Source: Chitinophagaceae bacterium (GTDB lineage: Bacteria > Bacteroidota > Bacteroidia > Chitinophagales > Chitinophagaceae). From it: 64,000 nt of DNA. The stretch spans positions 1 through 64,000 of the forward strand of contig CANFKC010000018.1 of assembly GCA_947447265.1 (NCBI GenBank). Direction: 5' to 3'. Shown here piece by piece: positions 8,868 through 12,845 of this stretch. The position numbers were made by a program, and so were the translations under genes. The stretch's first letter is position 1, and every line of letters starts with the position of its first letter. The notes under the pieces are model-generated. The model was not told the origin of the DNA. It ran no database searches and saw only the letters and a list, made by a program, of their open reading frames with translations.

Positions 8868-8918
8868 TTTGGTAAAACTAGAAATATAGTTTTATCTTTG
8901 AACTAGAAATATAGTTTT
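8868..8918 (+). promoter_or_regulatory. Promoter with two operator dyads for the BlaI-type repressor
   Basis: A Bacteroidota promoter is readable: TTTGG at 8868-8872, 20 bases, then TATCTTTG at 8893-8900. The spacer is filled by the dyad AAAACTA-gaaata-TAGTTTT (8874-8893), and the same 17-base core AACTAGAAATATAGTTT recurs 25 bases later (8901-8917), over the expected transcript start and up to the ATG at 8921. Two identical dyads, one between the promoter boxes and one on the start site, is the layout expected for autorepression by the BlaI/MecI dimer encoded immediately downstream. Confidence 0.8.
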
Positions 8919-8920
8919 AG

Positions 8921-9277
8921 ATGAAATCGCTAACAAGAGCAGAGGAACAGGTAATGAAGGTTTTGTGGCAGCTGGGTAGTGGTTTGCTTATGGAAGTAGT
9001 AGAAGCAATGCCGCAACCACAACCACACAAAAACACAGTAGCCACTATTTTGAAAACGTTGGTTGATAAAGAATTTGTGCGTGTCGAGCAATTGGGCCGT
9101 ATTCACCGATACCACCCGGAAGTGACCAAAGAAGACTATTCGCGCTCATCGCTTACCAATGTTGCCAAGGGTTATTTTGAAGGGTCGTTCAGCAATGTAG
9201 TTTCTTTTCTGGTAGATGAGAAGAAGCTATCTGTTGAAGACCTGGAGTTATTATTAAAGCAATTGAAGAAAAAATAA
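8921..9277 (+). CDS. BlaI/MecI/CopY-family transcriptional repressor
   Basis: 118 residues of the Penicillinase_R family: a winged-helix domain (L-T-R-A-E-E-Q-V-M-K-V-L-W at residues 4-16; K-N-T-V-A-T-I-L-K-T-L-V-D-K-E-F-V as recognition helix and turn, about 37-53; R-I-H-R-Y-H-P as wing) and a C-terminal dimerisation helix ending in Lys-rich sequence. Family members bind palindromic operators as dimers and are inactivated by proteolysis triggered by an M56 membrane protease. Such a protease is encoded 11 bases downstream. Two dyads in its own promoter support autorepression. The leader is short (about 15 bases) with no evident Shine-Dalgarno sequence. Confidence 0.92.
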   Translation: MKSLTRAEEQVMKVLWQLGSGLLMEVVEAMPQPQPHKNTVATILKTLVDKEFVRVEQLGRIHRYHPEVTKEDYSRSSLTNVAKGYFEGSFSNVVSFLVDEKKLSVEDLELLLKQLKKK

Positions 9278-9288
9278 AACGAACAGTT

Positions 9289-10929
9289 ATGGAAACATTA
9301 AGTCTGTTTTTATGGAAAAGTATTGTGGTTAGCGGCTTGCTCACTACCTGGTATATGGTAGCGCTACGTGGCAAGCGGTTGCACCAGTACAACAGGGTTT
9401 TCCTGCTCACAACATTGTTTGCGAGTTTAACCATACCGTTTTTAAATTTCCAGCTGTTCAGTGTGCCGCGCATTGTAGCCAATGGCATGGCACCAGTAGC
9501 TTTGCTGGTAGGCGCTACAGGCGACGCAGCCAATAGTACGGCGGCAACTCCTGTGCCCGCGGAAACCCCTGTTAACTGGTTACTTATAGCGGGCATTGCA
9601 GCAGTAACTGTGAGCATTACTTTGCTGTTTATACTTTTTACGAGGGTTATAAAAGTGCGGATGATGTGCAGCAAGTATCCCGTTACTCAAAAGAACGGAG
9701 TGAACTTACTGCTCACTGACTCGCCAAGTGCTCCCTTTACGTTTTTAAAATACCTATTCTGGAACAAGTCAATACCCCTGGATGGTGAAGTAGGCCAGCT
9801 CATTTTTAAACACGAACTCGCACACATTGAGCAAGGCCATACTTACGATAAACTGGTAAGTCAGGTACTCACCTGCATATTCTGGTTCAACCCTTTTTAC
9901 TGGCTCATTCAGAAAGAGCTGAATATAGTACACGAGTTTATAGCCGATGAAAAGGCAGTTGATAACAGAGATACGGAAGCTTTTGCTATGATGCTATTAC
10001 AATCGTTCAATAATGGTAGCTACCTGGTGCCTGAACATCACTTTTTTTCCTCTACTATAAAACGCAGGCTCACTATGTTACAAAATGCAGCAATGCCGAG
10101 GTATGCAAAGCTCAGGCAATTTATGGCGGTGCCGCTGATTGCAATGGCGATACTGGTGTTTTCCTTTACTGCACATACAGGACTGGCTGGTAACATTACC
10201 GCTGCCAAGAAGAAGATAGTGCTGGTATTAGATGCAGCACATGGTGGAAAGGACAGAGGTGCAGCAACCGACAACCTTGCAGAAAAAGATATTTGCCTGC
10301 AGGTTACAAAACGGTTACAAGAACTTGCGCCAGCTTACAATATTGAAGTGCACCTTACCCGTGATAATGATAACTATGTTACACTTGCCGATCGTGTTGC
10401 AATGACGGAAAAAATACACCCTGATGTGCAACTATCGCTGCATGTAAATAATTCACCAGGTACCGATAAAGCCAAAGGCGATTTCGATATCTATGTGTCA
10501 AGTCAGAATGCTAATGCACAAAAAAGCAGCGCATATAGTAATGCAATTTTTCAGGCAATGGTGCAAGACGGGATAATTCCGGGGCTCGAAGCCAAGGGCT
10601 GCAGCCACGACCAAGCAAGGATGTGCAGCAATTGCGCAAAGCAAGCTATGGTAATGCCTACTACTAAAGAACTATTGTATATGTTGAAGCAAGTGAAAAC
10701 CCCTGCATTGATGATGGAATTAGGTGATATCCACAATGAAGCGGCAATGAAAAAGCTCACTGATGCTAACAGGCAGGATGTATTGTGCAATGCTATTTTA
10801 AAGGGCATTGTGGAAGGTGCGGCAGCAAAGCCAGCCGCTCCAGCGACCACCAAGCCGGGAGGCTGTTCTGATGCAAATACTCCGCCTGTGCCCGGAGTGC
10901 CTGATTTTAAATCAAATTCAATCAAATAG
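9289..10929 (+). CDS. BlaR1-like M56 membrane protease fused to an Amidase_3 sensor domain
   Basis: 546 residues. Membrane helices near residues 5-22, 35-55 and 100-122; gluzincin motif H-E-L-A-H at 175-179 with the downstream H-E-F-I-A-D-E at 215; fourth helix about 280-298. This is the BlaR1/MecR1 order. The periplasmic part after helix 4 is not a penicillin-binding domain but an N-acetylmuramoyl-L-alanine amidase (Amidase_3): V-L-D-A-A-H-G-G (His318), Glu332 in L-A-E-K-D, S-L-H-V-N-N (His385) and M-M-E-L-G-D (Glu477), i.e. the three zinc ligands and the catalytic Glu. It has a Cys-rich insertion (C438, C446, C449) and a Pro/Ala-rich tail. Encoded 11 bases after the BlaI-type repressor, so probably it cleaves that repressor when muropeptides or wall damage are sensed. 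An active periplasmic amidase is an alternative or additional role. Confidence 0.88.
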   Translation: METLSLFLWKSIVVSGLLTTWYMVALRGKRLHQYNRVFLLTTLFASLTIPFLNFQLFSVPRIVANGMAPVALLVGATGDAANSTAATPVPAETPVNWLLIAGIAAVTVSITLLFILFTRVIKVRMMCSKYPVTQKNGVNLLLTDSPSAPFTFLKYLFWNKSIPLDGEVGQLIFKHELAHIEQGHTYDKLVSQVLTCIFWFNPFYWLIQKELNIVHEFIADEKAVDNRDTEAFAMMLLQSFNNGSYLVPEHHFFSSTIKRRLTMLQNAAMPRYAKLRQFMAVPLIAMAILVFSFTAHTGLAGNITAAKKKIVLVLDAAHGGKDRGAATDNLAEKDICLQVTKRLQELAPAYNIEVHLTRDNDNYVTLADRVAMTEKIHPDVQLSLHVNNSPGTDKAKGDFDIYVSSQNANAQKSSAYSNAIFQAMVQDGIIPGLEAKGCSHDQARMCSNCAKQAMVMPTTKELLYMLKQVKTPALMMELGDIHNEAAMKKLTDANRQDVLCNAILKGIVEGAAAKPAAPATTKPGGCSDANTPPVPGVPDFKSNSIK

Positions 10930-11054: not shown

Positions 11055-12416
11055 ATGAAAACGATCATTTCTTTCATGGCTGCGGCCGTGCTGCTGATGG
11101 CATGCCCTGTACAATCAAAAACAAGCACTTCAGAACTCCAGAAAATAAAAGCAAGAAGGGTGATCACCGACTATGGCTTTCGTGTTGGTTATATTTCCAG
11201 TGGTGTGCAGGATAGGGCCGGAAATACCTGGTTTGCCAGTACGCTGCAGGGCGTGTACCGTTACGATGGTAAAAAGTTTACTAACTACACCGTAAAAGAC
11301 GGTTTGAGCAGCGATTGCGCAACTGCAGTAACAGAAGATAAGAATGGAACTATCTGGGTTGCTACTGAAAATGGGGCGTGTATTTTTAACGGTAGTTCAT
11401 TCACGGCAGTTTCAGTGCCTGCTGCTGATGGAAGCAATTTCTTACCAGCTTTTACAACCAAGGGGGAGAAATTAAAACGATCAAATGCCGTTAGCTTCAG
11501 CAAACAAACCAGTAACGGCGATACATGGTATTGGTCAGGATTCAATATTTACCGGTATAACGGTAAGTCGCTTGTATACGCTTTACCGGGTGTTTCCAGT
11601 TTGCTGAGGAGCAAGGGCAAGCGCGTTGATACCACCTATGAGAACCCAAATATCTGGGAAATATTTGAAGATAAGAAGGGTAATATCTGGCTGACTACAG
11701 GCTCATGCTGCTGTTTGAATTGCACTTTCAAAGTAGATGCAAAAAGTATGGCTAATCCCTGTGTAAGCGGCAATTGCAAACACGATATGCACAATCCTCA
11801 GCAAGCCGCTTTGCACGAGCGGGAGCTGGCTACTGCAATCACAGAGGTTACTACAAAAGACGGTAACCGCGGCATTGCCTTCAGTTCCATACTCGAAGAT
11901 AAAAGTGGAGAAATATGGATAGGTACCTGGGACAGTGGCGTTTACAAATATGACGGCCGAAACTTTACACATTTTAAAGGCAAGAACGGGCTCGACCACA
12001 GCCTGGTTGGCGTTATGTACGAAGACAGGACTGGGAATATATGGTTTGGCACTGGCGCAAAGAACGGAAACATATACCAGGGGAGTGGTGCGTTCCGATA
12101 CGATGGTAAATCACTCACCCAGTATACCAGAAAAGATGGGTTGCTGAACAAGGGTGAATTTCAGAATAATGATGTTACTTGTATTGCTGAAGATAAAAAT
12201 GGCAGGGTATGGATATGCGGAGATGGCGGCGCATCTTATTATGACGGTAAGGGCTTCACGAGTTTTGGAATGAAAGAAGGTTTAAGTAAGGAGCGTGTTT
12301 CCGCAATTGTCCCTGACCACAACGGCAACATTTGGTTTACTACTGAAGATATGGGTGTTTTCCGTTATGATGGGAAAGGGTTTACCGGTTTTACTGAAAA
12401 GAAAATACAAGACTAA
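11055..12416 (+). CDS. Lipoprotein with two-component-regulator (Reg_prop) propeller repeats
   Basis: 453 residues. A lipobox (L-L-M-A-C, Cys17) marks a lipoprotein. The rest is Reg_prop repeats of the form G-x-x-W-F-A-S/T ... G-V-Y-R-Y-D-G-K-x-F-T-x-Y-T-x-K-D-G-L, at least six times, forming a beta-propeller. In hybrid sensor kinases such propellers are the periplasmic sensing part; here there is no kinase or membrane helix, so it stands alone. Unusual: a Cys-rich insertion (S-C-C-C-L-N-C at 217-223, then two further Cys and a His), capable of binding metal or forming disulphides. The cytochrome gene follows after 15 bases, so the two are probably co-transcribed. Confidence 0.85.
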   Translation: MKTIISFMAAAVLLMACPVQSKTSTSELQKIKARRVITDYGFRVGYISSGVQDRAGNTWFASTLQGVYRYDGKKFTNYTVKDGLSSDCATAVTEDKNGTIWVATENGACIFNGSSFTAVSVPAADGSNFLPAFTTKGEKLKRSNAVSFSKQTSNGDTWYWSGFNIYRYNGKSLVYALPGVSSLLRSKGKRVDTTYENPNIWEIFEDKKGNIWLTTGSCCCLNCTFKVDAKSMANPCVSGNCKHDMHNPQQAALHERELATAITEVTTKDGNRGIAFSSILEDKSGEIWIGTWDSGVYKYDGRNFTHFKGKNGLDHSLVGVMYEDRTGNIWFGTGAKNGNIYQGSGAFRYDGKSLTQYTRKDGLLNKGEFQNNDVTCIAEDKNGRVWICGDGGASYYDGKGFTSFGMKEGLSKERVSAIVPDHNGNIWFTTEDMGVFRYDGKGFTGFTEKKIQD

Positions 12417-12431
12417 CAAAACCCGCAAACC

Positions 12432-12845
12432 ATGAAACTCTTGAAAACATCGTACGTATGTATTGCTATATTGACGTTTACAGCATGCCACACGCTTAAA
12501 AGAAATACCCAGCCAGTTGCTGCAAAGGCCGAGACAAAAGCCTTTCCCATTACACCAGCACCTCGTGTAAAACCAGCTAATGGTGTATACGAGCCGGGCG
12601 CTGAAGAACATACTGCTATACAGCTTACCAATAAAGACGTTACGTCCGCTACACTTGCAGCAGGGTATAAAGTATATACCGGCCAGTGCACTAATTGCCA
12701 TGGCACAAAGAGTATCTATAACTTTACAGAGCAGGCATGGCCTTGGATAATAGAAGAGATGGCACCGGGTGCGAAAATTACACCTGCCCAGCAAGACGCT
12801 GTACTGAAATATGTTTTGGCTATTAAAGCTACCCAACCGAAATAG
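12432..12845 (+). CDS. c-type cytochrome lipoprotein
   Basis: 137 residues. Lipobox L-T-F-T-A-C near residue 19; a Pro-rich linker; then one haem-binding motif C-T-N-C-H (residues 86-90) in G-Q-C-T-N-C-H-G-T-K, followed by a Met-containing helix (I-I-E-E-M-A-P-G-A) whose Met can be the sixth haem ligand, and a final helix A-V-L-K-Y-V-L-A-I-K. A small periplasmic, membrane-anchored electron carrier. It lies 15 bases after the propeller lipoprotein gene, suggesting a redox partner or sensor role; which electron donor it serves cannot be read from the sequence. Confidence 0.85.
   Translation: MKLLKTSYVCIAILTFTACHTLKRNTQPVAAKAETKAFPITPAPRVKPANGVYEPGAEEHTAIQLTNKDVTSATLAAGYKVYTGQCTNCHGTKSIYNFTEQAWPWIIEEMAPGAKITPAQQDAVLKYVLAIKATQPK

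Follow-up and report, generated by a model that had tools for sequence, protein, structure and literature searches.

A 64,000-nucleotide stretch of DNA from a Chitinophagaceae bacterium (GenBank assembly GCA_947447265.1, contig CANFKC010000018.1, positions 1 to 64,000; hereafter the window) carries a gene pair in which a BlaI-type repressor stands beside a BlaR1-like M56 protease that ends in a peptidoglycan amidase fold of the Amidase_3 family. It is fairly probable, in our judgement, that the pair forms an autoregulated transducer of the BlaI/BlaR1 type, in which the amidase fold serves as the periplasmic receptor. The receptor role is suggested indirectly, by the pattern of change among related fusions, in which the catalytic glutamate has been replaced while the zinc triad and the M56 motifs were kept. 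This pattern also suggests that binding, and not hydrolysis, is the conserved step. The features of the locus are as follows.

8868 to 8900, plus strand: Bacteroidota-type promoter, read from the sequence, with TTTG at 8868-8871, a 21-base spacer and TATCTTTG at 8893-8900
8875 to 8892, no strand: putative operator 1, AAACTAGAAATATAGTTT, a dyad within the promoter spacer, conserved in relatives
8900 to 8917, no strand: putative operator 2, GAACTAGAAATATAGTTT, a dyad between the -7 element and the start codon, conserved in relatives
8921 to 9277, plus strand: repressor of the BlaI/MecI/CopY family, 118 amino acids, no cysteine (Pfam Penicillinase_R, E 3e-29)
9289 to 10929, plus strand: BlaR1-like M56 protease fused to Amidase_3, 546 amino acids (domain search, predicted structure)
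9289 to 10167, plus strand: residues 1-293 of the fusion, transmembrane helices TM1-TM4 and the M56 domain (HELAH 175-179, Glu216)
10204 to 10830, plus strand: residues 306-514, amidase module with the zinc triad His318/Glu332/His385 and catalytic Glu477
10600 to 10635, plus strand: residues 438-449, Cys-rich insert CxHx5CxxC (C438, H440, C446, C449)

Architecture of the fusion

The first-pass annotation had described a blaI-blaR1 layout, with a repressor followed by an M56 protease with four helices, and the domain matches agree. Penicillinase_R spans the whole repressor (102.1 bits against a cut-off of 22.6), and the protease has the transmembrane helices and the M56 domain, with HExxH and a downstream Glu, by which BlaR1 and MecR1 are recognized. 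Against the curated BlaR1 model NF000326, the fusion scores 24.2 bits (cut-off 400), with Amidase_3 standing in the place of the penicillin-binding sensor. That substitution had also been proposed from the first reading, and the domain search finds the amidase at residues 306-514. In a structural comparison, the BlaR1 fold covers residues 4-249, and a single predicted structure of the fusion matches both BlaR1 and amidases. Domain search, residue reading and structure comparison all find the Amidase_3 fold, the zinc triad and the catalytic Glu in the window fusion, whose tetrad (His318, Glu332, His385 and Glu477) is thus intact, as first described. By fold, zinc triad and Glu, the module is classed as an N-acetylmuramoyl-L-alanine amidase of the Amidase_3 type, and the window copy may hydrolyze the lactyl amide bond.

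Distribution in related genomes

How widespread is this arrangement? The protein has matches at E 1e-8 in 264 of 294 family genomes, many of these matches covering just one half. From the matches listed, 90 were examined as open reading frames (ORFs), comprising 30 loci and 60 stretches, eight of the latter picked as M56-only or short. Among these 90, 81 were confirmed as fusion loci, in at least 80 of the 294 Chitinophagaceae genomes. Six more fusions were found in named records (a Sphingobacteriia metagenome-assembled genome [MAG], two Chitinophagaceae MAGs, a Chitinophagales MAG, Flavobacterium denitrificans and a Cytophagales MAG), making a first set of 87. In a sample of 296 genomes from the phylum, considering best matches only, one of 23 loci outside the family was a fusion (L259).

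A BlaI gene lies directly upstream in 79 of the 87 fusions, separated in 68 of the 79 by a gap of -4 to 7 bases; one of the eight without it (L170) had just 101 bases of upstream sequence. The fusion beside BlaI genes, which the first-pass annotation had proposed to look for in Chitinophagaceae, is therefore a recurrent feature of the family. The M56 motifs are present in all 87. When 136 M56 halves are placed on a tree, 11 changes of the fusion label are needed, against a mean of 39.7 when labels are shuffled, so the architecture appears to be inherited, with some gains or losses. Four M56 proteins without an amidase, three from the family and one from the window genome, have other tails: TonB_C over the cut-off in two, Plug in one, and the rest weak.

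Loss of the catalytic glutamate

The zinc ligands are kept throughout most of the first set (His318 in 86 of 87, Glu332 in 87, His385 in 86; three duplicates of the window ORF were left out of the alignment), and the full triad is present in 103 of 104 readable fusions (the 87 and 17 more, L326 not being readable). Glu477 is kept in 74 of the 83 first-set fusions where the site can be read (leaving out L009, L018, L032 and L172) and is replaced in the other nine, by I, A, A, Q, Q, H, G, V and N. Eight of these nine retain the zinc triad, all nine the M56 motifs, and seven both blaI and the dyad. The losses are scattered and not clustered on the M56-half tree, corresponding to nine parsimony changes, at least five of which are forced by supported branches. 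When 18 fusions from the two nearest genera are added, Glu is replaced in 16 of 101 (L308 and L309, which are repeats, L323, with an unreadable site, and L325, the same gene as L318, being left out).

Stand-alone amidases served as a control. None of 70 lacks the Glu, and one has a changed first His; against the nine in 83 fusions, Fisher's test gives p 0.004, in rows that are not independent. Nearly all of the 70 came from a scan that used the first zinc motif, so they are a fair control just for the Glu and the other ligands. A closer control consists of 16 non-fusion amidases from 12 genomes, 15 intact and one without Glu. With both controls pooled, the comparison is 9 of 83 against 1 of 86 (p 0.009). 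Hydrolysis thus looks dispensable where Glu has repeatedly been lost with the zinc site and the switch kept, which favors a receptor over a mere enzyme. (The exception in the closer control, L304 at G026:C29, is a 203-amino-acid amidase-like protein, and the fusion of the same genome, L034, lacks the Glu too.)

Promoter and operators

The Bacteroidota promoter consensus is TTTG/TAnnTTTG, and the two dyads of the window flank TATCTTTG, its downstream element. They recur at the same position in relatives: among the 78 upstream regions in the fusion set (the window's is one of them), 71 have AAACTA-N6-TAGTTT with no more than two mismatches, where 20 rounds of dinucleotide shuffling gave 5.0 on average and 9 at most. 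In the 5.06 Mb window genome, the tandem dyad occurs once, at the fusion operon, and the composite of dyad and TAnnTTTG is likewise found a single time. In 20 genomes selected for carrying fusions, the tandem AACTA-N6-TAGTT dyad has 22 sites, 21 of them at the fusion operon (the reversed control gave none); the switch therefore seems to control mainly itself. The composite has 23 sites, 20 at the operon, and the three elsewhere are fewer than the 25 control matches in total, so these three are no evidence of a wider regulon.

When a regulon beyond the operon was considered, two more exact single dyads came up in the window genome, at C3:145788 and C52:1010. The latter sits inside ORFs. The former, a lone dyad, lies three bases ahead of an ORF on the same strand that belongs to a series of such frames, and it may have a role.

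Receptor or enzyme?

Several observations weigh against a receptor. In 85 of the 101 fusions, the window's included, the catalytic Glu is still in place, so selection for activity is probably present in most lineages. Among the nine Glu-less fusions of the first set, L164 shows no BlaI, L052 has no dyad, and L012 has lost two zinc ligands as well. The 70 stand-alone amidases come from many phyla, and the better-matched control (1 of 16) shows no difference from the fusions when used by itself (p 1.0). In the 20 genomes, no target gene beyond the operon was found with the tandem dyad, apart from a possible one at the site G212:C34:6351-6386, the only one of the 22 away from a fusion operon; promoter-embedded dyads elsewhere do not exceed the control level, other site types not having been searched for in relatives. 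Outside the Cys-insert clade described below, no third gene family occurs in more than four of 21 loci (the window and 20 relatives). With neither an outside target nor a shared third gene, a classical output such as blaZ is missing, and no beta-lactamase or penicillin-binding protein gene was recognized among the genes read beside the operon. The sole output seen is thus the operon itself, mostly encoding an active-looking amidase.

Could the amidase then be the output? BlaI and the M56 protease would in that case use feedback to limit how much of a membrane-bound wall amidase is made, much as with membrane-anchored amidases such as LytH. We regard this as unlikely, though it survives best among the alternatives. 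It is opposed by the 16 fusions without Glu: the nine that were checked in full all have the M56 motifs, and seven of them blaI and a dyad too. The remaining seven include L318, with an M56 half that falls in two frames, and L326, available only as a 3' part. Moreover, all 12 genomes checked have a separate amidase gene, and 15 of the 16 such genes that were read are intact.

The Cys-insert clade and its neighboring genes

Among the window fusion and its nearest relatives, ten proteins make up a single clade (support 100/98) marked by a Cys-rich insert that lies between His385 and Glu477. The exact motif CxHx5CxxC is found in eight of them (the window, L305, L311, L312, L313, L318, L326 and L012), and Hx3CxCxxC in two (L007 and L310). 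Two Cys at this place were found in none of 84 other first-set fusions, four of them truncated, and in none of the 70 stand-alone amidases. The Cys trio (438, 446, 449) picked out on first reading is thus real and is conserved in kind across the clade; taken together with His440, it resembles a metal or redox site, judging from the residues. The predicted structure of the insert is of low confidence, with residues 444-459 below 50 in the predicted local distance difference test (pLDDT). For one clade member, L318 (also L325, at G595:C27), the two-frame M56 half may mean that the gene is broken or that there is a sequencing error.

Two further genes follow the fusion in the window.

11055 to 12416, plus strand: secreted Reg_prop propeller protein with an invariant Cys/His set (Pfam Reg_prop, E 1.3e-32)
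12432 to 12845, plus strand: small lipoprotein-like protein with the c-type haem motif CTNCH (Pfam Cytochrome_CBB3, E 0.0012, under the curated cut-off)

A propeller gene of this kind lies behind all eight CxHx5CxxC fusions, and a different small protein behind the two Hx3CxCxxC fusions. At E 1e-4, no propeller relatives were found in 29 other fusion loci, 11 of which had only 0.5 to 1.5 kb of downstream sequence (L323, where the insert is not readable, was left out of this comparison). Six aligned propellers share an invariant Cys, a Cys-x4-Cys-x-His and a further His. Eight Cys-insert loci were mapped, and in four of them (the window, L327, L328 and L329) the c-type haem protein comes next. 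By their position, both genes are probable operon members, the propeller in the window's clade and the haem-motif gene in the window. Between 8700 and 13000, there are seven terminator-like sites, against 5.1 in shuffled sequence, one of them on the plus strand at 10878-10899, just within the end of the fusion gene; the case for cotranscription of fusion and propeller thus comes from gene order and not from these sites. Because a new downstream gene goes with the insert across the clade, a metal or redox cue has to be weighed seriously beside a wall cue.

Eight of the ten clade members lack the catalytic Glu, which only the window copy and L305 keep. This bears on the earlier suggestion that the sensor could process its own signal: it may hold for the window copy, with its intact tetrad, but not for most of the clade. 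Tentatively, the clade may represent a wall amidase on its way to becoming a receptor for periplasmic metal or redox cues, with the enzyme fading, a Cys/His site being added and BlaR1-type proteolysis of BlaI then controlling the Cys/His propeller and the cytochrome-c-like protein. If so, the window copy and L305, its closest congener, would stand at the stage where enzyme and receptor coexist.

A more radical version, in which sensing in this clade is left solely to the insert and the amidase fold is a mere scaffold, is quite improbable. It would accommodate the eight Glu-less members and in particular L012, which has lost two zinc ligands and the Glu, yet keeps the exact CxHx5CxxC, blaI, the dyads and the propeller neighbor. 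On the other hand, all eight of the other members that can be read, window included, have a complete zinc triad (L326 is not readable), and the insert itself is predicted with the low confidence noted above. The repressor also has a bearing here. CopY copper repressors bear a cysteine metal motif. The window's BlaI has no Cys and cannot bind metal as CopY does, a point in favor of the insert; CopY-type sensing by the repressor is accordingly ruled out. Its score against the curated CopY model TIGR02698 is 59.9 bits, under the cut-off of 121.95.

Two remaining alternatives fare worse. An active amidase might generate the signal, a breakdown product of the freed stem peptides binding BlaI in the cytoplasm. 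There is precedent: in one study (PMC3305447), a peptidoglycan dipeptide (D-Glu-diamino-acid, Bacillus licheniformis) frees BlaI and MecI from their operators, at about 2 mM by electrophoretic mobility shift assay and 8 mM by nuclear magnetic resonance. The intact tetrad of the window copy also speaks for this possibility, but the repeated loss of Glu with the switch kept speaks against it, and we hold it to be very unlikely. Finally, an assembly error or one-off fusion has a negligible chance, ruled out by the 81 loci in 80 family genomes, the six named records and the clustering on the tree.

How the switch may work

For the transducer with an amidase receptor, the following course of events may be envisaged. 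The BlaI homologue would sit on the two dyads over the promoter and keep the operon low. The amidase module, outside the membrane beyond TM4, would bind a ligand, the simplest candidate being a membrane-proximal peptidoglycan stem that docks at the zinc site; muropeptides or uncrosslinked wall, the signals suggested on first reading, are likewise only candidates. Binding would be relayed via TM4 to the M56 domain, which would cut BlaI, and perhaps itself, and so derepress the operon. In the window's clade, the added Cys/His insert and the Cys/His propeller, in some cases with the cytochrome-c-like protein, may have shifted the cue to a periplasmic metal or redox signal.

Relation to known systems

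The closest counterparts are BlaI-BlaR1 and MecI-MecR1 of Staphylococcus aureus and Bacillus licheniformis, which likewise have a repressor gene beside a four-helix M56 protease, a sensor module after TM4 and dyad operators at the promoter. In contrast to these, the window fusion has an amidase fold and not a sensor resembling class D beta-lactamase, and its control appears confined to its own operon. The relationship of the BlaR1 sensor to class D beta-lactamase, the BlaR1 layout and the cytoplasm-accessible protease are described in a structure paper (PMC9834060).

With the Amidase_3 enzymes (AmiA/B/C, CwlV, CwlD, LytH and Rv3717/Ami1), the window copy shares fold, zinc triad and Glu. The fusions differ in being tethered to an M56 protease, in the loss of Glu in some, and in the Cys/His insert that marks the clade of the window copy. 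Among Bacteroidota, M56 proteins that end in TonB_C or Plug-like tails share the M56 half, at up to 44 percent identity to the window protein, but unlike the fusion, they have no amidase. A parallel is offered by the animal peptidoglycan recognition proteins, where a wall-amidase fold also serves as both enzyme and receptor. Their fold is Amidase_2, however, their signaling is unrelated, and the residue they lose is a zinc ligand, whereas the fusions mostly lose the Glu.

Some fusions depart from the common architecture. Immediately downstream of a fusion gene, at L199:7658-8305 and at the same place in L022, there is a small amidase paralogue that has Gln instead of its first zinc His. In L009 (467 amino acids) and L189, the amidase is cut short and runs, by eye, into a LytTR-like tail resembling the adjoining response regulator gene. 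Long fusions of 600 to 1000 amino acids can stack Plug-like and TonB_C tails after the amidase, giving two kinds of periplasmic tail; in L014 (883 amino acids, with amidase, Plug and TonB_C) both tails are over the cut-off, and in L010 (695 amino acids) they are weak.

Significance

No M56-Amidase_3 fusion appeared in the titles and abstract openings found in part of one open-access library. Two papers that treat wall hydrolases and autolysin architectures, PMC6403190 and PMC8051824, contain neither "M56" nor "BlaR" in their available main text.

BlaR1-type signaling is known mainly from antibiotic resistance, and public protein databases presumably show M56-Amidase_3 fusions in their annotation. 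In the family sampled here, at least 80 of 294 genomes couple this protease-repressor engine to the fold of a wall amidase. The natural Glu-less variants that keep the switch provide material for asking if a wall-hydrolase fold can be a receptor. More generally, the fusions let one ask what BlaR1-like proteins sense without an antibiotic, and how an enzyme becomes a sensor.
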